Origin: Candidatus Kutchimonas denitrificans
GTDB taxonomy: Bacteria; Gemmatimonadota; Gemmatimonadetes; Palauibacterales; KS3-K002
NCBI GenBank assembly: GCA_011774835.1
Contig: JAACAK010000148.1
Span: 1 to 56,930 of the forward strand
DNA: 56,930 nt
Reading direction: 5' to 3'
The notes under the pieces were generated by a model. That model ran no database searches. It was not told the origin of the DNA and worked only from the letters and a program-made list of their open reading frames with translations. The position numbers were made by a program, and so were the translations under genes. Within the stretch, counting starts at the first letter, position 1; every line of letters starts with the position of its first letter. Shown here piece by piece: positions 2,116-30,167 of the stretch.

Positions 2116-2561
2116 GCAATCTCAGCCTTATCACGCGAATCAAGCACAGCATCCACAACGACCGCTTTCGGAATCTGTCATGGTGGCGACGGTGGATGAT
2201 ACGAGCTCTGGATTATCTGGAGAATCGGGTGTGGGCGACGTGGATCTATCCGCATTTGAGGCCGCGCACCTGGTACAAAAGGCGTCGTGATTTCTGGAAG
2301 GGGCAGGCGGTGCCACCCCGCATCAACGCCTTCCTGTGGGGAAGCGAAGAGGGCGGATACTGCGTCCATCTGATTGAGGACAACGGCCCGTGGGCCGTGT
2401 GTTGTGGGTCCGGTTGGACCGAGGAAGAGGCCAAGGAAAGCGCGCACGACATCCTCGGCATCTGGCAAGAGAACGCCGGCCTCCGATACCCAGAGCAAGG
2501 ATACACGCTCATCTGGAAAGACAGAAAGCCCACGAACACCGACCGCGCCTACACCCGATAG
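2112..2561 (+). CDS. Hypothetical basic N-terminal protein (149 aa)
   Basis: No family recognised. Residues 1-60 are rich in Arg and Trp (LSWWRRWMIRALDYLENRVW, RTWYKRRRDFW), like a membrane-surface or nucleic-acid-binding segment; residues 65-140 look like a compact alpha/beta domain ending in acidic residues. Start at ATG overlapping the upstream peptide by four bases. Confidence 0.65.
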   Translation: MSNLSLITRIKHSIHNDRFRNLSWWRRWMIRALDYLENRVWATWIYPHLRPRTWYKRRRDFWKGQAVPPRINAFLWGSEEGGYCVHLIEDNGPWAVCCGSGWTEEEAKESAHDILGIWQENAGLRYPEQGYTLIWKDRKPTNTDRAYTR

Positions 2562-2564
2562 CGA

Positions 2565-2756
2565 ATGACCCACACCCTCGCCTTCCTCGCCGGCTACACC
2601 TTCGGATGCGTCTGTATGCTGGGCGTGGTGCTGGCGGTGATGGGCGCGGAAGAGGAGCCGGACGGCTGGGAGAAGCTGATGGAGGACGTGGAGGATGCGG
2701 GTGAGATCGGTGAGGCTTTCCGCCAGCAATGGGAGGCGTTGAGCCCGTATGAGTGA
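2565..2756 (+). CDS. Small membrane-anchored protein (63 aa)
   Basis: Residues 3-26 form one hydrophobic span with three Cys/Gly positions (LAFLAGYTFGCVCMLGVVLAV), followed by an acidic cytoplasmic or external helix. The stop overlaps the start of the methyltransferase at 2749 by eight bases in the sequence ATGAGTGA, a junction found eight times in this window. Function unknown. Confidence 0.65.
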   Translation: MTHTLAFLAGYTFGCVCMLGVVLAVMGAEEEPDGWEKLMEDVEDAGEIGEAFRQQWEALSPYE

Positions 2757-3420
2757 GCGTTTGGTGGTGCTCGACCTCTTCTGTGGAGCCGGCGGCGCGG
2801 CGATGGGTTACCACCGCGCGGGCTTTGATGTGGTGGGTATTGACATCGAGCCACAGCCCAACTTCCCGTTCGCATTTATCCAGGCCGATGCGCTCGAGCC
2901 TCCGGTGGATCTCACGGCCCTCGACCTCATCCACGCGAGTCCGCCGTGTCAGGCGTACACGCCCATGAGTAACCGATGGAGGGGATCTGGCGGGTTGGCG
3001 GACGAGCGGCCCGACTTGATCGGTGCGGTTCGGCAGATGCTCGAGCTTGGGGGTGTGCCTTACGTGATAGAGAACGTGCCCGGCGCACCGTTGGCGTGCT
3101 TTATCCGGCTCACGGGCGAGATGTTCGGGCTGTCCGTTCATCGCCCCCGTCTATTCGAGTGTCACCCGTTTCTCATGGGGCCGGCGCCGGAGCGGAGGCA
3201 AAGAGATCCGGTGGCTGTGTACGGCAAACATCACGATGGGCGGTTGTTGTGGACCCGCAAAGACGGCACCGAACTACGCGCCCCCGACAACCTTGAGGAG
3301 CCGTCAGAGGCAATGGGCATCGACTGGATGACGTGGGACGAGCTCAAGGAGTCGATACCGCCCGCGTACACCGAATACATCGGTCGGCAGATGAAGCCGC
3401 TTCTGGAGCAGGCCGCATGA
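2749..3420 (+). CDS. Phage C5-cytosine DNA methyltransferase (small type)
   Basis: Transfers a methyl group from S-adenosylmethionine to cytosine C5 in DNA. Motif I DLFCGAGG is at residues 9-16, the catalytic motif IV SPPCQAY at 64-70 (Cys67), and motif VI VIENVPG at 107-112. At 223 aa it lacks the large target-recognition domain of Dcm-type enzymes; this short form is common in actinobacterial and other phages. No restriction partner is next to it, so it probably protects phage DNA. Start at ATG in the ATGAGTGA overlap. Confidence 0.9.
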   Translation: MSERLVVLDLFCGAGGAAMGYHRAGFDVVGIDIEPQPNFPFAFIQADALEPPVDLTALDLIHASPPCQAYTPMSNRWRGSGGLADERPDLIGAVRQMLELGGVPYVIENVPGAPLACFIRLTGEMFGLSVHRPRLFECHPFLMGPAPERRQRDPVAVYGKHHDGRLLWTRKDGTELRAPDNLEEPSEAMGIDWMTWDELKESIPPAYTEYIGRQMKPLLEQAA

Positions 3421-3572
3421 CCGAACGCTACTGGATCCGCCCCACTCGCCCGGACGCCGTGGCCTGGACGAACCCGCCGGAGTGGATCGCGCGGCTGATG
3501 GCGGCGTTGGGCTATACCGAGGTGGATGCGGCGTGCTTCCGGATACATATAAAGACGAGGTGGCGCGCGTGA
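3417..3572 (+). CDS. Small hypothetical protein (51 aa)
   Basis: Unrecognised. Starts at ATG overlapping the methyltransferase stop by four bases and ends overlapping the GTG of the RusA-like gene by four. Contains a short amphipathic helix (EWIARLMAALGYTEVDAACF). The overlaps on both sides support translation. No function proposed. Confidence 0.55.
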   Translation: MTERYWIRPTRPDAVAWTNPPEWIARLMAALGYTEVDAACFRIHIKTRWRA

Positions 3573-3994
3573 GCATCCGCCAAATCGACCTCACGCTGCC
3601 GGTGCCGCCCTCCCCGAACGAATGGCCGAAGCATCCGATGCAACTCGCTAGGAAGAAGAACCACTACCGCCGGCAGGTATGGATCGAGGCGATCCAGCAG
3701 CACAAGCCGTGGATGGAGCCGCCGCACAAGGTGGTGGCCAGCGCGACCTTCTACGTCTGGAACAAACGCGACGAAGACAACCTCACCGCATCTCTGAAAT
3801 GGACGCTGGACGCGCTGAAACGCGACCAGACGGGCAAGATGCACTGGCGCGAGGGCGTGGCCGACATGAAGGGCTACATCATCGACGACGACCCCGAGCA
3901 CTTGACCGTGGTGAAGCCGAGCCAGGAGATCGACAGGGAAGATCCGAGGCTGGTGCTCATTCTGCGCTGGAACGAGGAAAAGCGGGCCGCATAG
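3569..3994 (+). CDS. rusA: RusA-family Holliday junction resolvase
   Basis: Cleaves four-way DNA junctions during recombination or before packaging. The family pattern is visible: hydrophobic strands around 3-12 (IRQIDLTLPVPPSPNEW), a KRDEDN motif at 66-71 with candidate metal-binding Asp68 and Asp70, helix with Asp81, and IIDDDPE at 104-110. Length 141 aa is typical. GTG start chosen because it overlaps the upstream stop (GTGA); an ATG further upstream lies in the preceding gene. Fits with the ERF annealing protein at 53600 as a recombination set. Confidence 0.85.
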   Translation: MSIRQIDLTLPVPPSPNEWPKHPMQLARKKNHYRRQVWIEAIQQHKPWMEPPHKVVASATFYVWNKRDEDNLTASLKWTLDALKRDQTGKMHWREGVADMKGYIIDDDPEHLTVVKPSQEIDREDPRLVLILRWNEEKRAA

Positions 3995-4876
3995 ATGCCG
4001 CAGATAGACGAAGCACGCTCGGTCGGAGAGTTGGGACTTACGGACGACACGGGCCGCCTCGAAGCGGCCAAGATCATCGCAGAGGATGCGATCCGGTATC
4101 ACGGGCCTCGGCACATCGTCGCGCTATTCAGTGGCGGCCACGACTCGGTTTGTGCCACGCATTTCGCCAGCACGCTCGACGGCTTCACGGGCGTCTTCCA
4201 TGCCAATACGGGCATCGGGATCGAACAGACCCGCGAGTATGTCAGGCAGACGTGTAATGAGCACGGATGGCGGCTGTGGGAATACCACGCGACCGACCCG
4301 AGCTATGACGATCTCGTGCTCGACAAGGGTTTTCCTAGGGGCCCGAAGTCTCACAACTCGATGTACTGGTATCTGAAACAGAAATCGCTAGACCGCTTCG
4401 TGCAGGAGATGAAAGACGAGTGGTCGGACCGCATCATGCTCGTGACCGGCATCCGCACCAGCGAGAGCGTGCGTCGCATGGGCCAGGCGATGAGCCAGCC
4501 GTGGACGCGCACCGGAGCGCAGGTGTGGGTGAACCCGATCCTGCTCTGGTCGAAGCTCGACACGGGCCGCTACATGGCCGCGCACGGCATCCGCAGGAAC
4601 CCCGTCGTAGACACCCTGCACCGCTCGGGTGAGTGTCTGTGTGGAGCGTTCGCCAACGCCAACGAGATCCACGAGATCGAGGAGTGGTATCCCGATACCG
4701 CCGAGCGCATCTACCGGCTGGAGAGGCGGTGCGAGGAGCGCGGCCTCGTGGACTGCCGGTGGGCGCAGAGTCAGGCGCCAGGAAAGAGGTGGGACGAGGT
4801 ACACGAGAGCGAGGTGGACCTACAGATGTGCCTCGCCTGCGTAGCCGATAACCGCAAACCCATGCCGCCGCCATGA
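3995..4876 (+). CDS. PAPS reductase-family PP-loop protein
   Basis: Belongs to the adenine-nucleotide alpha-hydrolase (PP-loop) superfamily: SGGHDS at residues 46-51 is the pyrophosphate-binding loop of PAPS reductase/DndC-like enzymes. Cys214/Cys216 (ECLCG) and Cys279/Cys282 (CLAC) could hold an iron-sulfur cluster or zinc, as in APS reductases and DndC. Substrate unknown: phage members are often annotated as PAPS reductases, but a role in nucleic-acid sulfur or other modification is possible. The neighbours are DNA methyltransferases; a sulfotransferase, which would use PAPS, lies at 17268. Start ATG directly after the upstream stop. Confidence 0.85.
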   Translation: MPQIDEARSVGELGLTDDTGRLEAAKIIAEDAIRYHGPRHIVALFSGGHDSVCATHFASTLDGFTGVFHANTGIGIEQTREYVRQTCNEHGWRLWEYHATDPSYDDLVLDKGFPRGPKSHNSMYWYLKQKSLDRFVQEMKDEWSDRIMLVTGIRTSESVRRMGQAMSQPWTRTGAQVWVNPILLWSKLDTGRYMAAHGIRRNPVVDTLHRSGECLCGAFANANEIHEIEEWYPDTAERIYRLERRCEERGLVDCRWAQSQAPGKRWDEVHESEVDLQMCLACVADNRKPMPPP

Positions 4877-21333: not shown

Positions 21334-21803
21334 CCGAAGACCGCAACCCGTGGGACAAGCTCCCCGAAGAGACGCAGCGTGGGTATAGCTATTTCCGTGA
21401 ATATCTGGAGATGCCCGCCACGGAGCGCTCGATCCACCGGGCTGCGGAGAAGCACGGCAAGGCCGACCGCTACTGGCAGGAGCTATCGGCCAAGCACAAC
21501 TGGGTCGAGCGAGCGACGGCATATGATGAATGGATCGCCGAGCAGGCCGACGAGGAGATGGTCCGCATGGCTCGCATGGCCCGGCGAGAGATGGCGATGG
21601 AGGCCACGAAACTCGCTCGCCGGCTAGTGGAGGTCGGGCTATTCGAGACGGACGAGCCGAACCCGACCGTGGTGCGCGCGATCGTCGCTGCGCTCGACAG
21701 GGCGGGCGTATCCGTGCCGAAGGACATCAACGTCTCCGGCGAGATGAGCCTGGAGCACATCCTCATGGAACTCGCGGATGAAGACGGCGACGATCAAGGG
21801 TAG
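21330..21803 (+). CDS. Terminase small subunit (probable)
   Basis: Located directly before the large terminase, with features of the DNA-recognition subunit: N-terminal helical HTH-like part (RSIHRAAEKHGKADRYWQELSAKHNWVERATAYDEW), the W-x2-R-x2-AYD element common in this group, a helical oligomerisation part (EEMVRMARMARREMAMEATKLARRLVE) and an acidic C-terminus. Length 157 aa fits. ATG overlaps the upstream stop by four; 26-base overlap with terL. Confidence 0.75.
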   Translation: MTEDRNPWDKLPEETQRGYSYFREYLEMPATERSIHRAAEKHGKADRYWQELSAKHNWVERATAYDEWIAEQADEEMVRMARMARREMAMEATKLARRLVEVGLFETDEPNPTVVRAIVAALDRAGVSVPKDINVSGEMSLEHILMELADEDGDDQG

Positions 21804-23355
21804 GCTCGACCGGCTGCGGAAGGACTTCCCCACGTGGGCGAAGGCGTGCTACACGATCCGCGACAAGCACGGCGACCTCATCAAGCTCGCCCCGAACGAG
21901 GCACAGCGGCGCATCCTCGCCACCGAGCGGGCGCAGATGCAGAACAACGGCAAATGCCGGCTCTACATCCTCAAGGCGCGGCAGGGCGGCGTCACGACGT
22001 ATGAGCAGGCCAGGAACCTGCACACGATCTGGGCGAACCCCGGCGCGGCGGTGATGACGCTGGCCCACACCCGAGAGGACACCGACAAGATCTTCCGCAT
22101 CACACAGCGGGCGGTCAACAACTTCCCGCAGGCGCTGTTGCCGACGCTCGGCGGGCGCCAGACGCGCGAGATCGGGTTCCCGGGCATGGACTCGACGTTC
22201 TGGACCGCGACGGCCGGCGCGAAGCGCGTGGGCCGTTCGGTGACGCTCAGTAGGCTGCATGGCTCGGAGTTCGCGTTCTGGGACGAGCCAACCGATACGC
22301 TCAACCAGCTATCGCCGGCGCTGGAGAAGCCCAATACGTCGATCGTGCTGGAGACGACGGCCTCCGCGCACGGCTCAACCGCCCACGAGTTCTGGGAGAA
22401 GGCCGAGAGCGGTGAGAGCGGCTACGAGGCGCTGTTCCTGCCGTGGTGGATCTGCGACCACGAACTCTACCGCAGCCCGCTGGAGCACGAGGACGAGATC
22501 AGCACGCTCAGCGAGGAAGAGCAGATCCTTGTCGACAACCACGGGCTCGACCTGGAGCAGATCAAGTGGCGGCGCGAGAAGATCGCCGAGAAGGGCAGAG
22601 CCGAGTTCCTACAGGAATACGCCGAGGACCCCGAAAGCTGCTGGCTCACGGCCGGCGATCTGTTCTTCGACGGCAACGTGCTCAAGTATCTGCAAGAGAG
22701 CGCACCCGAGCCGAAGCGCCGCGAGCCGGTGCATCTCAAGGGCTGGAACGGCATGATCCTGGTGTATGGTGAGCAGGTGGGGTTCGACTGGGAGAAAGAG
22801 CGCGTCGTGATCGGCGTGGACGTGGCTGAGGGCGGCGGCGGCGACCGCTCGGCGTGGGTCGCTCGATCGTTTCCGTCGTGGGAGTTGCTGGAGACGTTCG
22901 CGGATTCGTCGATCACGCCGAAGCAACTCGCCGAGATCCTGAACGCACGCGGTCGCAAGCACGACAATGCGTTGCTGGTGATCGAGAAGAACGGCCACGG
23001 AATCACGGTGCTAAGGGAGCTAAGAGACGAGCACCGCTACCCGCTCGCCAAGCTCTACCATCGCACGCAGGTGGACCGCGCCGCGAACAAACAGACGCTC
23101 GCGATGGGCTGGACGACGACGGCGCAGTCCAAGCCACTGATGCTCGACGCCGGACGCGAACTCATCACCTCGGCCAAGAACGGCGAGGTCGCACCGCCCG
23201 GCATCGACGCGATCCGCGACGCCTTCAACACGGTGCGCGACAAGAACGGAAAGGTGGACCTCAACGGACGTGACATGCTGGTCGCCGAGATGCTCGCATG
23301 GCTCGGCCGCGACTACGCGGTCGGCGGCTACAAGAGCTTCACGGCGCCGGTCTAG
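21778..23355 (+). CDS. terL: Terminase large subunit
   Basis: ATP-driven DNA packaging motor with nuclease. Walker A-like LKARQGGVTT at 65-74, Walker B SEFAFWDE at 163-170, coupling motif IVLETTASA soon after. C-terminal RNase-H-like nuclease: VIGVDVAEGGGGDRSAW (first Asp), LLVIEKNGHGITVL (Glu) and a final acidic site near RDMLVAEMLAW. 525 aa is typical. Sits between small terminase and portal. Confidence 0.93.
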   Translation: MKTATIKGRLDRLRKDFPTWAKACYTIRDKHGDLIKLAPNEAQRRILATERAQMQNNGKCRLYILKARQGGVTTYEQARNLHTIWANPGAAVMTLAHTREDTDKIFRITQRAVNNFPQALLPTLGGRQTREIGFPGMDSTFWTATAGAKRVGRSVTLSRLHGSEFAFWDEPTDTLNQLSPALEKPNTSIVLETTASAHGSTAHEFWEKAESGESGYEALFLPWWICDHELYRSPLEHEDEISTLSEEEQILVDNHGLDLEQIKWRREKIAEKGRAEFLQEYAEDPESCWLTAGDLFFDGNVLKYLQESAPEPKRREPVHLKGWNGMILVYGEQVGFDWEKERVVIGVDVAEGGGGDRSAWVARSFPSWELLETFADSSITPKQLAEILNARGRKHDNALLVIEKNGHGITVLRELRDEHRYPLAKLYHRTQVDRAANKQTLAMGWTTTAQSKPLMLDAGRELITSAKNGEVAPPGIDAIRDAFNTVRDKNGKVDLNGRDMLVAEMLAWLGRDYAVGGYKSFTAPV

Positions 23356-23363
23356 GAGAACAC

Positions 23364-25001
23364 ATGCCCCACGACAGCTTCGATCAAGACGAACTCGGCG
23401 ACGGCTCGGCGAAGGACTTCATGAGCCCCGTCGGTGACGACGGCTTCGACCCGAGAAACGAGCACCCAGATTACGCGAAGCACAAGGAAGCTTGGGAGAC
23501 GACGCGCGACGTCTATCTCGGTGCCGAAGGCGTGCTGCCGAGCGTCGAGAAATACGTGCCGCGCAGGAGCATCGGCGAGGCCGAAGAAAGCTACGATGAG
23601 CGCAAGGCGCTCGTGCATGTCTCGGGGCTACTCGGCTCGGTGATCGACGCGCTGGTCGGGCTGTGGGCGCGTAAGCCGCCGGAGGAGGACGAATGGGGTT
23701 CGCTAGGCGAGCGCGGCGAGGACGGCGAGCTCAACCCGGACTCCGTGGCGCAGATGATCGTCGAGGACGCCGACCGGTCGCGCACGACGTGGGACAACCA
23801 CCGCAGGGCGCGCGCGACGTGGACGCTCGTCTACCGCAAGGTCTTTACCTACATCGATACCAACAAGCCGCCCCAGGACCCGGACGCGGACGAGGATATG
23901 GACCGAGAGGAGGCGCGGCAGGCCAACATCCGGCCGTTCGTCACGCTCGTCTCTCCGCTCGACGTGATCGACTGGATCGAGAAGGACGGCCGCAAGGTCG
24001 AGGTCGTGATCCGCGAGGAGGCCGACAACCGCGATTCGCTGGACGACGGCTCGGCGGATGTCGAGGAGCGCTTCCTGCGGCTGCGCCTGAACGGCTGGGA
24101 GCGCTTCCGCGTCGTCAAGGAAGGCGAGAACGTGCGCGTGGAGCGCATCGGCGGCAACAGCTACGCCTACGAGGACTCGGATGGCACCCCCCGCCTGCCA
24201 CTCGTCGAGGCGACGCTACCGCTGCCGCGCTACATCTCCTACAACCTCGCGCGCATCGTGCTGGCGATCATCAACCACGACAGCCACCTCGATTCACTCG
24301 ACCGGGCAGGTGCCCTCGCACAGTTTCTCGCCGTGCAGGGCGACTCTGAAGAGATCAAGAAAGAAATCAAGCTTGGGGACAAGGTGCTGCCCTATCCGCC
24401 CGGCGTCGAGCCGCCGTCCTTCATCGCCTACCTGATGGACGCCGCCGGGCCGCTGGAGAAGCGCATCGAGACGCTGGTCGCGCAATTCTGGAACGCCGCG
24501 ATGTGGGAGTTCAGCGACCGCCCGAAGGAGCGCACCGCGACCGAGGTCACGCAGGAATGGGCGGCCGGTGTCGGCGCGTTCCTGACGCAACTTGCCGGCG
24601 CGATGGAAGAGGCCGAGAACGAAGAGAAGATGCTACTTGCTCAGGCCGACAACCCCGACGTGTCGACCTCCGAGGTCGGCACCACGAAGTTCGCCAGGGA
24701 ATACAAGATCCAGGACGTGATCGCCGAGCTCACGCGGCTCAAGGAACTCGTGTTCGGGATCGGCGACCGGCTGCCGATGAGCGCGGCGCTCAAGGCCGCC
24801 GTCGGCGAATACTTCCTCACACGCCTCGACGAACAGGCCGGCATCCTACAAGCCGTCGACGAGGACACCGACGTGGGCGAGGAGATCCGTGCCGCGACCG
24901 AAGAGGCCGAACTACAGGCGAGCCAGCTTTCGGGGCTGCGTGAAGAGGCCGACCGGCAGCCCGGGTTCCCCGAGGAGGACGAGACCGAGGAGGCGGCGTG
25001 A
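23364..25001 (+). CDS. Portal protein
   Basis: Forms the dodecameric vertex through which DNA enters. 545 aa, directly after terL and before the MuF protein; acidic N-terminus (DSFDQDELGDGSAKDF), a stem/wing region with YISYNLARIVLAIINHDSHLD and a C-terminal helical crown (VIAELTRLKELVFGIGDR). The pattern resembles the DUF4055-type portal group. ATG at 23364 follows TAGGAGAACAC; the upstream in-frame ATG lies inside terL. Confidence 0.82.
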   Translation: MPHDSFDQDELGDGSAKDFMSPVGDDGFDPRNEHPDYAKHKEAWETTRDVYLGAEGVLPSVEKYVPRRSIGEAEESYDERKALVHVSGLLGSVIDALVGLWARKPPEEDEWGSLGERGEDGELNPDSVAQMIVEDADRSRTTWDNHRRARATWTLVYRKVFTYIDTNKPPQDPDADEDMDREEARQANIRPFVTLVSPLDVIDWIEKDGRKVEVVIREEADNRDSLDDGSADVEERFLRLRLNGWERFRVVKEGENVRVERIGGNSYAYEDSDGTPRLPLVEATLPLPRYISYNLARIVLAIINHDSHLDSLDRAGALAQFLAVQGDSEEIKKEIKLGDKVLPYPPGVEPPSFIAYLMDAAGPLEKRIETLVAQFWNAAMWEFSDRPKERTATEVTQEWAAGVGAFLTQLAGAMEEAENEEKMLLAQADNPDVSTSEVGTTKFAREYKIQDVIAELTRLKELVFGIGDRLPMSAALKAAVGEYFLTRLDEQAGILQAVDEDTDVGEEIRAATEEAELQASQLSGLREEADRQPGFPEEDETEEAA

Positions 25002-25213
25002 CGCCCGAAGCCGGAAAGCGACGTGACGAGCCGGAGCCGTATTGCCATACTTGCGGAGGCTACCATACGGACAGGGACCGGCATCTGTGTCCGGACCAGC
25101 CGCCCGAGGGCACGTATGAGGAAGGCTACGCACACGGCTTTGAGGACGCACTGAAGCACTTCGTCGGGCTGTACATGGGCGCGTCCGGGATCAAGGGCAT
25201 GCGGGCGGCCTGA
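24998..25213 (+). CDS. Small zinc-binding protein between portal and MuF (71 aa)
   Basis: CHTCGGYHTDRDRHLC (16-31) forms a Cys/His zinc site; the C-terminal part is a helix (EGYAHGFEDALKHFVGLYMG). GTG start overlaps the portal stop by four; its stop overlaps the MuF ATG by one base. Function unknown. Confidence 0.6.
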   Translation: MTPEAGKRRDEPEPYCHTCGGYHTDRDRHLCPDQPPEGTYEEGYAHGFEDALKHFVGLYMGASGIKGMRAA

Positions 25214-27204
25214 TGCCGTTCGACCCGGGCGCCTATACCCGACGCATCCTCGCCGCCCGCCGGCTACATCTGGCTTTGGATGCGAGGGCTCTGCGCGAAC
25301 TCAGGCGGCTGCTCACGGAGCACGCAAACGAACTCGCACGCAGGATCGCAAACCTGCCGGCCGGAGATGCACGGACCAGGACGATAGCGGCCCGGCGCAT
25401 CACCGAGGACCTGTACGCGCGACTCGCCCGAGACCTGGAGCGGCTGACGGAGGACGGCGTCCGGCTACAGTTCACGACGATCAAGCGCGAGATGGACCGT
25501 GCGACCGTCGAGGCGATCCGTGCGGCGGAGCAGAGTGTATCGGCGGTGTTCCAACCGCGCCCGCCGGCACAATCGGCGGCGGCGTATCTGGCACGGGGCG
25601 ATACCGCCGAGGTGTTCCGCACGCTGGACGCGGCCGTGGACGGCGCGGCAGCGGGCACCGACGAACTCATTGCCGAAGCGCTCGCAAGGGGATGGAGCCC
25701 GGAACGGCTGGCGCGCCGCATCCGGCCCTATGTGCTCGGCCAGACGCAATTCTCGGCCGAAGAGTTGCGTGACCTCAGGCGCGTGCCGATGGAACGTAGA
25801 GAGGCGTCGAGGCAGCTACAGTTCAACGCCCGGCGCATTGCGATCACCGAGATGGGCAACGCGGTCCACGAGGCGCAGATACAGAACATGATCGAGGCGC
25901 CGATGGTCGAGGCGTGGCGTTGGCGGCTGAGCCCCGTGAGAGGCACGCAGCAGGGCAAGCCCGACGTGTGCGATATCCTGGCCAGCTTCGACGCCTACGG
26001 GATCGGTGGCGGGCTATATCCGGTCCGCAAAGTGCCGCGCCGGCCGCACCCATTTGACCGCTCTGTCGCAGCATGGACACCCGTCTTAACGCGCAGTGGA
26101 TGGAAGAGTGTCAACAATATTTGTGAAGGCGAACAGGTGATGACGCACAAAGGTAGATGGCGTTCGGTGAAGCGAAGTATCCACGGGCGCAGAACTGGCG
26201 ATTGGGTGAAGCTACGAACCACCAGCGGCCAAGAGCTTTACATCACGACCGATCATCCAGTTCTCACGTCAGGCGGCAAATGGCTCTTCGTAGGCGACCT
26301 GTCGCCCGGTGATCTTGTTGTATGCCTCGATGGTTTCCTCAACGATGATGTCAAGGAACTTACGCGATCGCCGCTTCGTCTTGGTGATGTTGCCACGGTC
26401 GACTACCACCAGCGTCCAGCCCTCGCGATCCAGCTTCTCGGCCTTCCTGCGGTCTTGGTCGATCTTTTTCGCCGAACTATGCCACCCACCGTGGATTTCT
26501 ATGGCGAGCTTGGCCTCGGGGATGGCGACGTCGATGTTGAATCGGCCGATGGGCCACAGAGTTTCGGCGGGTATGCCAAGGCTGTGAAGCTTCATTCGGA
26601 CTGCGCGCTCGTAGACGGAAAGCTGGGATTGGTTCTCGTAGACCGTCTGTGCGCTTTTTTCCAGTACCTCTTCGGGGACATCGCGCCCAGTGAAAAACTC
26701 GCGAGCATGTTGCGCAGCGCGTTCGCGTTCTTTCGGAAGACGCTCGTACCGAAGACGGTTCGCCTCACTCTGGCCACGGGGCTCAATGTCCATTTCGAGC
26801 AGGCGGTTACGGATCGTCCATCTATTCACCCCCAACCGTTGAGCTACAACGTATTCGGGCAGCAGTTCGTCGACATAGAGCCGCCGAATTTCGTCGAGGT
26901 CGAGATCGAGTCGCTTACCCATGTTCCTCTGACCTTGCGGCGGTACTGTTTGACCGTTGTTGAAGATAACAGTTTCGTGGCCGCCGGAGTAGTTGTCCAC
27001 AACTGCTGGGGCCAGAGCGAGACGCGACCCGTGGAGCGCTGGCAGGACCCGAAGCCGGAGCCTGGGATCGAACGGCTGCCGACGATCGCGGCGGTAAGAG
27101 ACTTGTTCAACCCGGACCAGACGCAAAACCATATCGAGCGCCAGACGTTGCTCGCACGGCGCGTCATCCGAGAGGCGTCGGCGAGCGCGGACGCTGCGGC
27201 ATAG
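25213..27204 (+). CDS. MuF-type head morphogenesis protein interrupted by an intein
   Basis: Phage Mu gpF-like head protein. Extein N-part (1-283) is helical with RRIAITEMGNAVHEAQ and the conserved W-x2-S-x9-PDVC segment (Cys253) ending PRRPHPFDR; the C-extein starts at Cys598 (CWGQSE) and restores the conserved HP-x-C core. Between them lies a 314-residue intein (284-597) that starts with Ser1 and ends VVVHN before Cys+1. The spliced product would have 349 residues, normal for the family. The whole 663-codon frame is open. The splice site sits in the best-conserved spot of the host protein, as usual for inteins. Confidence 0.85.
   Translation: MPFDPGAYTRRILAARRLHLALDARALRELRRLLTEHANELARRIANLPAGDARTRTIAARRITEDLYARLARDLERLTEDGVRLQFTTIKREMDRATVEAIRAAEQSVSAVFQPRPPAQSAAAYLARGDTAEVFRTLDAAVDGAAAGTDELIAEALARGWSPERLARRIRPYVLGQTQFSAEELRDLRRVPMERREASRQLQFNARRIAITEMGNAVHEAQIQNMIEAPMVEAWRWRLSPVRGTQQGKPDVCDILASFDAYGIGGGLYPVRKVPRRPHPFDRSVAAWTPVLTRSGWKSVNNICEGEQVMTHKGRWRSVKRSIHGRRTGDWVKLRTTSGQELYITTDHPVLTSGGKWLFVGDLSPGDLVVCLDGFLNDDVKELTRSPLRLGDVATVDYHQRPALAIQLLGLPAVLVDLFRRTMPPTVDFYGELGLGDGDVDVESADGPQSFGGYAKAVKLHSDCALVDGKLGLVLVDRLCAFFQYLFGDIAPSEKLASMLRSAFAFFRKTLVPKTVRLTLATGLNVHFEQAVTDRPSIHPQPLSYNVFGQQFVDIEPPNFVEVEIESLTHVPLTLRRYCLTVVEDNSFVAAGVVVHNCWGQSETRPVERWQDPKPEPGIERLPTIAAVRDLFNPDQTQNHIERQTLLARRVIREASASADAAA
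26062..27003 (+). mobile_element. Intein in MuF protein (314 aa)
   Basis: Splicing blocks are visible in the sense frame: block A SVAAWTPVLTRSGWKSV, GEQVMTHKG, block B GQELYITTDHPVLT (TxxH), LSPGDLV; block F LTVVEDNSFVAAG and block G VVVHN before Cys+1. Between blocks B and F the sense frame shows no LAGLIDADG or HNH signature. Instead the opposite strand carries a 217-codon endonuclease gene (26269-26922) that fills exactly this gap. Ser at position 1 is less common than Cys but functional in known inteins. Confidence 0.88.
26269..26922 (-). CDS. Antisense Vsr/DUF559-like homing endonuclease inside the intein (217 aa)
   Basis: Residues 11-45 form an HTH (EIRRLYVDELLPEYVVAQRL, then NRWTIRNRLLEM) of the kind joined to phage homing nucleases, followed by QSEANRLR. 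The catalytic part is PD-(D/E)XK/Vsr-like: YERAVRMKLHSLGI, FNIDVAIPEAKLAIEIHGGWH (Asp131, Glu142, His148) and RRKAEKLDREGWTLVVVDRG, the DUF559 hallmark. ATG at 26922 has AGAGG upstream; the frame is open further upstream to 27132 but that part is a shadow of the extein. Codons are exactly aligned with sense codons. Confidence 0.85.
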   Translation of the reverse strand: MGKRLDLDLDEIRRLYVDELLPEYVVAQRLGVNRWTIRNRLLEMDIEPRGQSEANRLRYERLPKERERAAQHAREFFTGRDVPEEVLEKSAQTVYENQSQLSVYERAVRMKLHSLGIPAETLWPIGRFNIDVAIPEAKLAIEIHGGWHSSAKKIDQDRRKAEKLDREGWTLVVVDRGNITKTKRRSRKFLDIIVEETIEAYNKITGRQVAYEEPFAA

Positions 27205-27216
27205 GGGGAAGAGAAG

Positions 27217-27402
27217 ATGGGTGGGTATCTTGCATTGGCTCTATTGGTGTTTCTGTTGCTTCTGCCGCCGCTCGGGATGGTGCACGAATCACTCAAGGGC
27301 GTGGATGACGATCTGCGCCGCATCGGATGGTTGATGGTGTTCTGCACTCTTTCGGTGGTCGCCGCACTGGGCGGTATCCTCGTAGTGCTTATCCGTTTTT
27401 AA
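27217..27402 (+). CDS. Two-span small membrane protein (61 aa)
   Basis: Hydrophobic spans at 4-22 (YLALALLVFLLLLPPLGMV) and 39-60 (LMVFCTLSVVAALGGILVVLI) with a charged loop between. ATG follows GGGGGAAGAGAAG. Located between head genes; function unknown. Confidence 0.65.
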   Translation: MGGYLALALLVFLLLLPPLGMVHESLKGVDDDLRRIGWLMVFCTLSVVAALGGILVVLIRF

Positions 27403-27582
27403 GTGCAGGAGAAAGAGCTTGAGCGTGAACCGATCGGGCAATGCGACGAATGCGGTGCGTGGAGTTTTCGGGTGACCGTATTGAGGATGCAGGTGCGTCC
27501 CGGCATGGGCGCGACGCTGCGCCGTATCGAGCGCATCGAGTTCGAGTGCGACCACAGGGGGAGCCGCGCCGGTGAGCGATAA
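27403..27582 (+). CDS. Small zinc-site protein (59 aa)
   Basis: GTG at 27403 immediately after the upstream stop; Cys14-x2-Cys17 (QCDECG) and Cys49-x-His51 could bind zinc. Stop overlaps the next GTG (27572). Beta-rich middle (SFRVTVLRMQV). No family known. Confidence 0.5.
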   Translation: MQEKELEREPIGQCDECGAWSFRVTVLRMQVRPGMGATLRRIERIEFECDHRGSRAGER

Positions 27583-28393: not shown

Positions 28394-29251
28394 ATGAGCG
28401 ACCTGCCCGAGGTCGTCTTTTCACTAGACGACGTACCCGACAGTGCGCGCGGACGCTACATCGAAACCGCGCCAGGAGAATACTGGTTACCCATGCCTGA
28501 GAAAAATGAAGGTGGAGAGGGCTCAGAGAAGCGGTTCAGCGAGGAGCAGGTTCAGGAGTTTGTAACGGACCGGCTCAAACGCGAACGTAAGCGGCTCAAG
28601 AGCGAACTCCGCGACCAAGTCCGGACGGAACTGCTGGTAGACGACGCGTTCCGGCGCGAAGCGCTCGACGAATGGGACATTGATCCTGCGCACGACGGAG
28701 AGGGCGGCAAGCTGGACGACGGCAAGGTACAGGAGCTCCACCAGACTTGGAAAACCGAGCATCTCGACCCGGTGCAGGAACGGGCGGAGACGCTCGAATC
28801 TGAGATCGATTCGCTGCGCGTCAGCCAGCTAGAGTCGGACCTGCTGGCCGAGGCCGGCGGCATCGTCCAGAAAAGCGTTCTCAAACGTCAGGCGAACGGC
28901 AGGACGGCGCTGTTCAACATGATCGGCGGCGAGTTCACCTACGACGAAGAGGACGGCGAGTGGCGCGTGAAGGGCGAGAACGGCGACTACCGGCCGTCTC
29001 CGTCCGGCGACCGTCTCTACATGACGCCCCCGGAGTTCGTGAAGAACGTGTGGGCGACCGACGACGACAACGCGCCGTTCATTCGGGACACGACGCAGGG
29101 CGGTAGCGACTACCAGGGCGGAAGCTCTGGCGGCGGCAAGCGCACATACAGCCGCGACGAGTACAACAAGCTCTGCGCCGACGAAAGGTACTACGCGAAG
29201 CACAGAGACGAACTTCTTGCCGCCGAGCGTGAAGGGCGCGTCAAAGGATAG
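28394..29251 (+). CDS. Scaffolding protein (probable)
   Basis: 285 aa, acidic, directly before the capsid gene. Predicted long charged coiled coil (EEQVQEFVTDRLKRERKRLKSEL; ERAETLESEIDSLRVSQLES) typical of head scaffolds, and a Gly-rich linker near the end (GGSSGGGKR) before a charged C-terminal helix, as in scaffolds that bind the coat with their C-terminus. No protease motif seen. Confidence 0.7.
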   Translation: MSDLPEVVFSLDDVPDSARGRYIETAPGEYWLPMPEKNEGGEGSEKRFSEEQVQEFVTDRLKRERKRLKSELRDQVRTELLVDDAFRREALDEWDIDPAHDGEGGKLDDGKVQELHQTWKTEHLDPVQERAETLESEIDSLRVSQLESDLLAEAGGIVQKSVLKRQANGRTALFNMIGGEFTYDEEDGEWRVKGENGDYRPSPSGDRLYMTPPEFVKNVWATDDDNAPFIRDTTQGGSDYQGGSSGGGKRTYSRDEYNKLCADERYYAKHRDELLAAEREGRVKG

Positions 29252-29285: not shown

Positions 29286-30167
29286 ATGGCACTCGTAAGC
29301 GGTCTATCTTACGACGCTTTCAAGCCGGAACTCTGGAGCGCCGAGCTCAACTTCTCGCTCAAGAACGCGCTGGTCGCCGACTCGCTGGTCAACCGCAACT
29401 GGCAGGGCGACATCCAGCAGTTCGGCGACACGGTCCACATTCAGGAGCCCGGAAGCGTCACGTCCCGCGCCTACACGGCGTACTCCGACATCACCTGGGA
29501 ACAGCCCAGCCCGACGGACCGGACGCTGGTGATCGACAACGCCGACTACACGGCGGTCGACGTCGACGACATCGACGAAGCCCAGGCGCGCGTCGATCTG
29601 ATGCAGTCGCACATGCAGGAAGCTGCGTTCAGCCTCGCCGATACCGAGGACGCGTTCATCTTCGAGATGTACACGGACGCGAACTCGGGCGTCTCCTCGG
29701 ATCACGCGAACTCGCTGGCGCTCACCGCCGGCAACGTCTACCAGCGCTTCGTCGAGGCCGCGTTCGTGCTCGACACGCAGGACGTGCCGAAGACGGGCCG
29801 CTGGGCGGCGATCACGCCGGAAGAGACCTCGCTGATCCGTCAGGCCGGGCAGTTCGTGCCGGTCGACGACTCGTCCAACAACCGGGCGGGCGGCGGAACG
29901 TCCGACTCCGCGCGCATCGTGCGTACCGGAGAGGTCGGACAGATCGCGGGCTTCACGGTCTTCGAGTCGAACAACATGACCACGGTTTCCGGGGTCAAGA
30001 AGCTGCTGTTCGGCACGCGGCGCGCCACGACCTTCGCCAACCAGATCACCGAGATGGAGGCGATCCGGCGCGAGTCGCGCTTCGCCGACGGTGTGAAGAG
30101 CCTCAACGTCTACGGCAAGAGCACCCAGCGTGCCGAGGCTCTGGCGCTGCTACACGTCACCGCGTAA
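29286..30167 (+). CDS. Major capsid protein (HK97/P22-coat-like fold, probable)
   Basis: 293 aa. N-terminal WSAELNFSLKNALVADSLVNR and GDTVHIQEPG are like the N-arm/E-loop start of P22 coat-type capsid proteins; ESNNMTTVSGVKKLLFGTRRATTFANQI and MEAIRRESRFADGVKSLNVYG resemble the A-domain/P-domain end. Position after the scaffold and the strong AGGGAAACCTAG-ATG start fit. Followed by a very stable hairpin, consistent with high expression. Confidence 0.85.
   Translation: MALVSGLSYDAFKPELWSAELNFSLKNALVADSLVNRNWQGDIQQFGDTVHIQEPGSVTSRAYTAYSDITWEQPSPTDRTLVIDNADYTAVDVDDIDEAQARVDLMQSHMQEAAFSLADTEDAFIFEMYTDANSGVSSDHANSLALTAGNVYQRFVEAAFVLDTQDVPKTGRWAAITPEETSLIRQAGQFVPVDDSSNNRAGGGTSDSARIVRTGEVGQIAGFTVFESNNMTTVSGVKKLLFGTRRATTFANQITEMEAIRRESRFADGVKSLNVYGKSTQRAEALALLHVTA

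Follow-up and report, generated by a model that had tools for sequence, protein, structure and literature searches.

An intein in phage MuF-type head protein genes with a Vsr-type nuclease gene on its antisense strand

Contig JAACAK010000148.1 of Candidatus Kutchimonas denitrificans (56,930 nucleotides, hereafter the window; contig 14 of a 149-contig, 3.76-Mb assembly) carries a gene for a phage MuF-like minor head protein that is interrupted by an intein. Between the two halves of the splicing domain, the opposite strand encodes a helix-turn-helix (HTH) plus Vsr-type nuclease, codon on codon with the sense frame. We are highly confident that this is a mobile intein of phage MuF-type head proteins, with its endonuclease as a separate antisense gene; that the element cuts, splices and homes we infer. 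The case is carried by the architecture, by homology and conservation, by selection on both readings and by the empty site of a relative. The relevant features of the window are these.

25213-27204, plus strand: MuF-like minor head protein gene with intein; 663 amino acids, one continuous open reading frame.
26062-27003, plus strand: intein, 314 amino acids, from Ser1 to His-Asn and then Cys+1 of the C-extein.
26272-26922, plus strand: sense shadow of the nuclease, a translated and stop-free linker from block B to block F.
26923-27003, plus strand: C-terminal splicing segment (blocks F and G); in many relatives it also holds the predicted promoter of the antisense gene, which is unrecognisable in the window.
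26922 to 26269, minus strand: antisense nuclease gene, codon-aligned with the sense frame; 217 amino acids, coding to 26272, stop at 26271-26269. The stop, TGA, is the complement of sense TCA 26269-26271.
26788-26901, minus strand: N-terminal HTH, residues about 8-45 (model helices 9-18, 23-30 and 34-43).
26389-26610, minus strand: PD-(D/E)XK nuclease domain of Vsr type, residues 105-178.
26920-26936, minus strand: predicted start ATG (26922-26920) with weak Shine-Dalgarno (SD)-like AGAGG (26930-26926) and AAGG (26936-26933; spacing 10).

The intein lies where a sequence-only reading of the window had placed it. It matches Pfam Intein_splicing (E value 9.8e-10; 38.9 bits, cut-off 35.8). Among NCBIfam models, intein_Cterm scored above its cut-off and intein_Nterm below its own. 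The intein has Ser at position 1, ends in VVVHN and is followed by Cys at +1, which is the class 1-type nucleophile pattern. As in class 1-type inteins, blocks A/B and F/G sit in the host frame. The host protein matches PHROG 1657 (head morphogenesis; E 2.5e-23). Family profile searches of the sense frame, including the linker between blocks B and F, found no nuclease family. Thus, the intein shows no in-frame endonuclease motifs, in agreement with the sequence-only reading, and a sense-coded nuclease was rejected. A structural model of the sense product agrees in part with the insert being a linker. The splicing ends are mostly confident, with a predicted local distance difference test score (pLDDT) of 72-94 for residues 21-90 and 86-89 for the last 14 residues; the first 20 residues are not (34-46). 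The linker (residues 91-300) scored 38-81 and is mostly low. In a Foldseek search with this model the best matches were inteins; the nearest was the Mtu RecA mini-intein, with a weak E value of 2.6e-3, and none fell below 0.001.

The antisense protein had been read as an HTH plus Vsr/DUF559 nuclease of 217 residues, and family searches agree. The protein matches DUF559 above its cut-off (3.2e-5), MTES_1575 just under its cut-off (3.4e-9; 37.1 bits, cut-off 38.2) and, by sequence, the homing endonuclease I-Bth0305I (PDB 3r3p; 5.6e-4). Profile comparison matched 3r3p at 1.1e-6, second to 3hrl, an 'endonuclease-like protein', at 9.9e-9. The HTH segment matches PHROG 7545 and 8446, with a profile match to 2lvs. 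An AlphaFold model built with 67 sequences has a mean pLDDT of 87.9. Foldseek ranked the catalytic domain of I-Bth0305I first against this model (E 6.8e-4), with Vsr lower (0.057). Among relatives, D131 and E142 (window numbering) are invariant and E105 is kept in more than 90%. With a fold nearest to I-Bth0305I and Vsr, and conserved acidic residues, the nuclease falls among the Vsr-like, putatively EDxHD, homing endonucleases.

The layout recurs in other phages. Homologues of the antisense frame were found by tblastn in a phage collection: the window nuclease matched 10 phage records, and the nucleases of two relatives matched 121 and 132. The layout was examined in 27 nuclease-bearing phage loci (L002-L027 and L145), of which L007-L009 entered the sample by way of their intein. 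In 25 of the 27, as in the window, the nuclease lies antisense inside an annotated head gene, in one register and with 0 sense stops. Hence, what was first read in the window, an antisense nuclease in a contiguous and still open intein, holds well beyond it. According to the records, the hosts are Gordonia, Mycobacterium, Rhodococcus, Salmonella, Escherichia, Klebsiella, Cronobacter, Pantoea, Pseudomonas, Vibrio, Idiomarinaceae, Actinobacillus and Helicobacter; one locus with the layout is from an Edwardsiella phage. A further 101 loci came from contigs (18 from IMG/VR, the best 80 of 150 also from IMG/VR, and 3 from GTDB); part of these belong to phages already in the sample. All 101, which span GC contents of 0.34-0.71, keep the aligned frame opposite the nuclease free of stops; the two other registers hold 2-18 and 3-34. 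Toward the start of the head gene, the open aligned frame extends at least 150 codons in 98 of the 101; in L097 and L102 it is cut by the contig end, and the remaining locus, L123, has no intein and is described below.

Clustering at 70% nuclease identity gave 81 clusters, or 80 intein loci without L019, a free-standing nuclease described below. We searched one sense segment per cluster (n=80), each with no more than 110 codons ahead of the nuclease zone. Intein_splicing was present in 75 of the 80 (E up to 0.01), and the host-gene families were Phage_Mu_F (41), Phage_min_cap2 (11) and VG15 (2). The 80 nuclease rows comprised 79 antisense proteins and L019; L007, which is LAGLIDADG-like, was left out. 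MTES_1575 matched 57 of these rows (E up to 0.01) and HTH families matched many. Among the loci fetched, none has its nuclease in sense inside an intein; in-frame fusions were not searched for separately. As a side observation, the PHROG 15127 'head protein' model matches 79 of the 80 sense segments. The likely cause is that the model includes the intein, and it is unsafe for host-gene assignment.

The two genes share one register. In the window, base 1 of the antisense codon lies opposite base 3 of the sense codon, as claimed from the letters alone, and the 25 phage loci have the same register. The two other registers of the window hold 6 and 5 stops. In the codon-aligned register each sense stop corresponds to a single antisense Leu or Ser codon that has synonyms; in the other registers a stop straddles two codons. 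Thus, the nuclease protein is free to vary, and the choice of Leu and Ser codons alone is limited. The expected avoidance of TTA, CTA and TCA is borne out. The antisense gene of the window has none. For 120 of 127 intein loci, 509.1 were expected from the codon usage of each locus and 0 were seen (7 loci with too few reference codons were dropped). With one locus per cluster, 346.8 were expected and 0 seen (75 of 80 loci). The free-standing L019 nuclease has 11 such codons, with 9.1 expected.

Substitutions separate the two readings. The counts come from 36 of 128 qualifying pairs, several being near-duplicates. In the nuclease zone, the shares at sense positions 1, 2 and 3 were.49/.19/.33. 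The corresponding values were.28/.23/.49 for the N-extein,.26/.18/.56 for the N-splicing segment,.20/.18/.62 for the C-splicing segment and.26/.22/.52 for the C-extein. The peak at position 1 means that the nuclease zone evolves as an antisense protein, with the sense reading merely kept open. The nuclease strand is under protein selection in this zone, and the sense pattern holds on both sides of it; the substitutions do not, therefore, support one coding strand only. The tail of the antisense open reading frame often overlaps the N-splicing segment. Because the sense pattern prevails there, selection on the nuclease probably does not extend to this tail.

An intein-less allele marks the insertion site. 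Salmonella phage Ent1 (L146) reads HPN/CRSTT where phage vB_StyS-sam (L011) reads HPN/CLLGD...IIAHN/CRSTT, which defines an exact junction. Of the phage records, 498 match an intein-bearing MuF gene, and a place covering at least 80% of the gene is present in 70. In 60 rows sampled evenly down the ranking, 48 showed two pieces reaching both ends of the gene with the middle missing. The genome announcement of Escherichia phage Snoke reports the intein of the Snoke MuF gene and an intein-less relative, and its main text contains neither 'endonuclease' nor 'antisense' (PMC6776784). For the window's own phage, no intein-less allele was present in 43 genomes of the order. The sam and Ent1 alleles differ at 97 of 729 N-extein bases and at 13 of 315 C-extein bases. 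Since 10 of these 13 fall within 60 bases downstream of the junction, we do not claim a simple co-conversion tract. The divergence reads as mosaic recombination around the intein site.

A second type of nuclease occupies the same layout. Gordonia phages Lennon (L007) and Barsten (L008) carry an antisense gene of another family (nuclease 3097-3684, minus strand). The Lennon protein matches PHROG 5046, 'HNH endonuclease' (2.2e-15). No Pfam match was found for the Lennon/Barsten protein. Its best solved sequence is I-MsoI (E 0.0013), a LAGLIDADG enzyme, and it has a LAGLIDADG-looking motif, AAYVAAFIDGEG. The intein of these phages is a different one, at the same site (VIN/C) and in the same genus, Vividuovirus, as those of Vsr-type members such as Angelicage. 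With two nuclease types at one site in one genus, the antisense layout has probably arisen, or been refilled, at least twice.

Many members of the class appear to carry control signals for the antisense gene inside the intein. An SD sequence of at least 6 nucleotides before a nuclease-frame start was found in 26 of 81 loci (L019 included), against a mean of 1.0 in two control frames. Its commonest place is opposite block F (GHVYNLQ), the complement of which, TTGGAGGTT..A.ACATG, is a predicted ribosome site plus ATG. Block F codon counts required the motif and were made for 53 of the 80 loci. The His codon is CAT in 45 of the 53 (23.9 expected), the Leu codon is CTC in 47 (11.6 expected) and an SD-like 5-mer precedes the start in 34. 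We also shuffled synonymous codons with the sense protein and codon usage held fixed (76 of 80 loci, 2 of the 76 being too short to score). Below 56% GC, SD plus ATG was enriched (p<0.05 in 9 of 36 loci; combined 2.9e-5). Relative to the Cys presumed to be residue 1, the nuclease stop lies at -3 to +12 codons in 42 of the 59 callable loci among the 80. The wrong Cys may at times enter this count; for the window, the one chosen is 20 residues inside the intein.

Promoter-like signals are found on the nuclease strand. Sigma70-like scores in the 300 bases upstream had a mean z of 1.78 on the nuclease strand and 0.12 on the other strand below 56% GC (36 loci). Above 56% GC (40 loci) the values were 0.87 and 0.10. 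With sense protein and codon usage fixed, the promoter score reached p<0.05 in 27 of 76 loci on the nuclease strand and in 5 of 76 on the other. Matches of at least 10/12 occurred in 18 of 76 loci on the nuclease strand, four of them 12/12, and in 0 of 76 on the other strand (76 of the 80 loci were scored). Thirteen of the 18 fit entirely within the final 40 bases of the intein, 4 have their −35 element in the C-extein and 1 is deeper. An exact TATAAT directly opposite block G is present in 9 of 51 called loci; the ATA excess opposite block G is slight (10 of 29, 5.4 expected). Taken together, these sequence statistics support a start, stop and promoter of its own for the antisense gene in many, not all, members.

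We propose the following scheme. The sense strand encodes a HINT splicing domain, and the stretch between its halves is a translated linker whose sole requirement is an open frame. Opposite this linker, the antisense strand encodes an HTH plus Vsr/EDxHD-type endonuclease. In many relatives, block F has the predicted ribosome site and ATG on its other strand; the stop is found across from the first codons of the intein, and the predicted promoter across from the C-terminal splicing segment. With start, stop and promoter within the intein, the whole nuclease gene would travel with it and would not have to wait for the late head operon. The nuclease would be made independently of that operon and would cut MuF genes that lack the intein, at the conserved Cys. 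Repair would then copy in the intein together with its antisense gene. The precursor would splice, leaving the head protein unharmed.

A wider reading, which we judge likely and hold less firmly, is that these elements are ambigrammatic two-gene machines. The promoter, ribosome site, start and stop of the antisense gene would be written in splicing-motif codons, namely those of the C-terminal segment with blocks F and G and those following Cys1. The nuclease would be inseparable from the splicing domain and yet expressed apart from the late head gene, its host as a parasite. The layout would have arisen or been refilled at least twice (Vsr-type and LAGLIDADG-like), always in one register. It would be widespread in MuF genes of Actinobacteria, Gammaproteobacteria and Helicobacter phages.

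Several observations weigh against the account of a homing intein with an antisense endonuclease. The enrichment of SD plus ATG was not seen above 56% GC in the synonymous shuffle (p<0.05 in 3 of 40 loci; combined 0.21). That result, and an IMG/VR contig without an intein (L123), lowered our confidence in the two-gene reading. The L123 contig has an antisense nuclease match at 2501-3355. Its MuF end is intein-less (HPRCRC..., HPRCRCSLGLPGD...stop, in another frame) and the antisense nuclease comes after it. The aligned frame is open, with just 24 codons before the nuclease zone, and ends in a second similar stretch, HCRCSLGLGDDNG. Perhaps L123 is a remnant or an intermediate of insertion. In Acinetobacter phage P1068 (L019), an intein-less MuF gene is accompanied by a free-standing relative of the nuclease; within 2390-4053 the nuclease is convergent to the MuF gene and overlaps its end. 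L019 is a possible precursor, or an escaped form, of the antisense cassette. In Salmonella phage GE_vB_M5 (L145, an unverified record) both frames are interrupted: there is one stop in the nuclease frame, and the sense frame is not continuous with the head gene. In the record of phage GE_vB_M4 (MG969409), the nuclease match falls in 3 pieces; sequencing error or decay may account for both interrupted copies.

The remaining points of this kind concern the window and the sample. No promoter was found in the window, where the best match was 8/12 on both strands. Thus, the proposal that the antisense gene has its own promoter stands for the class, in which the promoter signals are on the nuclease strand only, and not for the window. 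The SD signal of the window is also weak, being AAGG or AGAGG alone. No close relative of the window's intein was found in single-protein scans of IMG/VR or in 43 genomes of the order. The IMG/VR scans, one with the window's intein and one with its nuclease, found no relative, although tblastn in the phage collection did; in the 43 genomes the sole match was the window's own gene. A nuclease profile matched 68 of 395 genomes of the phylum, and the 67 matches besides the window were all partial. The loci were gathered mostly through their nuclease, so the sample is not one of inteins of other kinds. Many loci are related, and the combined P values overstate their independence.

An alternative is that the nuclease has given up homing and has a different use for the phage, such as excluding intein-less phages that co-infect by cutting their DNA, with the intein as both shelter and immunity. 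Patchy presence beside intein-less relatives, the Vsr-like fold and the free-standing relative adjoining an intein-less MuF gene in L019 would all suit such a role. Unrelated phages, however, have the insertion at precisely the same place, ahead of a conserved Cys, which is the usual mark of homing, and the two roles are compatible. We regard exclusion as the proper function as unlikely.

It is also conceivable that both strands are selected throughout and that the sense linker is a functional domain. At the core of the linker is a string that looks conserved, DFHGDG..G.V.VV; the sense model has a pLDDT of up to 76-81 over residues 121-140, and the aligned frame is unbroken in the 101 contig loci. 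On inspection of the alignment, however, the DFHGD of the core turns out to be VAVEV, from the active-site stretch of the nuclease, read on the complementary strand. Variation by codon position is that of ordinary coding on the antisense strand, no family was found in the sense linker and model confidence is mostly low. A functional linker is thus very improbable.

In the window taken alone, the open antisense frame is weak evidence: 3.1 TTA, CTA or TCA codons are expected at 64% GC, and the P of finding none is about 0.04. The TerL gene of Brevundimonas phage Kikimora (L147; 2099-4834) cautions against reading much into an open antisense frame by itself when a gene is GC-rich. Its intein has in-frame matches to Intein_splicing (3.4e-5) and LAGLIDADG_3 (0.0022), both below their cut-offs, and the gene has a codon-aligned antisense open frame of 837 codons in which no gene is claimed. 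An accident of GC-rich coding, with a weak or chance nuclease match, could therefore be imagined in the window. Against it, the same nuclease family lies antisense at GC contents from 0.34 to 0.71, the substitutions track the antisense frame, the confident nuclease model matches a homing endonuclease and promoter-like signals are on the nuclease strand alone. We give this explanation hardly any weight; homology and the relatives decide that the antisense gene of the window is real. Removal of the insert as RNA, by a group I or group II intron, has a precedent in the antisense endonuclease genes described for group I introns (PMC9548176), but is scarcely credible given no Rfam family at gathering score in window positions 25000-27500, in-frame intein families in 75 of 80 relatives and a sense frame open through the insert.

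The antisense gene and its intein sit in a phage head module, in the order terminase, portal, MuF, scaffold and major head protein. The neighbours of the MuF gene in the window are listed below.

21778-23355: terminase.
23298-25001: portal.
28394-29251: scaffold.
29286-30167: major head protein.

In Salmonella phage records such as MZ560703, OQ507916 and MT677934, the gene under the nuclease match is annotated 'NAD+--asparagine ADP-ribosyltransferase'. This label on a MuF gene is probably a transferred misannotation.

Selfish elements of this kind are usually drawn as a single protein; here the two halves are separate, and one DNA stretch serves two unrelated proteins read in opposite directions. 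The layout also offers many natural pairs of antisense overlapping genes, each with two products open to assay, one by splicing and the other by DNA cutting. Evolution of overlapping frames becomes testable, with one register, one codon rule and control signals inside protein motifs. Our results suggest that standard annotation misses a group of probable homing endonucleases in phages as well studied as Salmonella Jerseyvirus and Escherichia Kagunavirus.

Full-length inteins of the PI-SceI type carry an in-frame homing endonuclease domain between blocks B and F. The inteins described here resemble them in having their splicing blocks in the frame of the host gene, in sitting at a conserved residue, in being patchily distributed and in placing an endonuclease between blocks B and F. 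Here, by contrast, the endonuclease is on the opposite strand and outside the precursor, and the sense insert is a linker in which no function is apparent. Split-intein fractured genes have the host gene in two, with a Vsr-like nuclease gene between the split intein halves; in the window and the 25 phage loci there is one continuous sense open reading frame instead. I-Bth0305I (EDxHD/Vsr-like) has its catalytic fold in common with the antisense nuclease. It was deposited as a mobile intron protein, whereas the present gene is antisense inside an intein and has N-terminal HTH segments.

Other systems place an endonuclease or an open frame on a second reading. Antisense homing endonuclease genes occur in nuclear group I introns of Didymium, and there too the gene is on the strand opposite the splicing element (PMC9548176). 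That element is an RNA intron in rRNA genes, with a His-Cys nuclease and no sense frame to keep open; at window positions 25000-27500, the Rfam search at gathering score gave no sign of a self-splicing RNA. The ShiLan domain (PMC11855218) is an HNH endonuclease hidden out of frame in an open, non-splicing insertion in phage methylases. It resembles the present case as a mobile phage insertion that is open in the host frame with its nuclease in another frame, and differs in having no splicing domain; 'antisense' and 'reverse' are absent from the main text of PMC11855218. Ambigrammatic narnaviruses keep a codon-aligned reverse frame open by avoiding UUA, CUA and UCA (PMC6884476). They are RNA viruses in which that source gives the function of the reverse frame as unknown, whereas here both products can be assigned.

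The layout had been described from the letters as not a standard arrangement. Among the matches listed from the literature searched, from which preprints and most subscription journals were absent, no title or abstract opening describes an antisense endonuclease inside an intein, and to that extent the description stands. It does not stand as a claim of rarity in MuF genes, given the 132 records that match one nuclease, with the layout checked in those fetched. The ShiLan paper (PMC11855218) cites a 2025 preprint (Gosselin, Arsenault and Gogarten) on actinobacteriophage inteins of 'non-canonical architecture'. Judged by its title alone, that preprint may overlap with the actinophage cases (Gordonia and Mycobacterium); the proteobacterial and Helicobacter cases are outside the scope of the title. 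What is new here is a homing intein that lacks the in-frame endonuclease and yet, presumably, works like one that has it.

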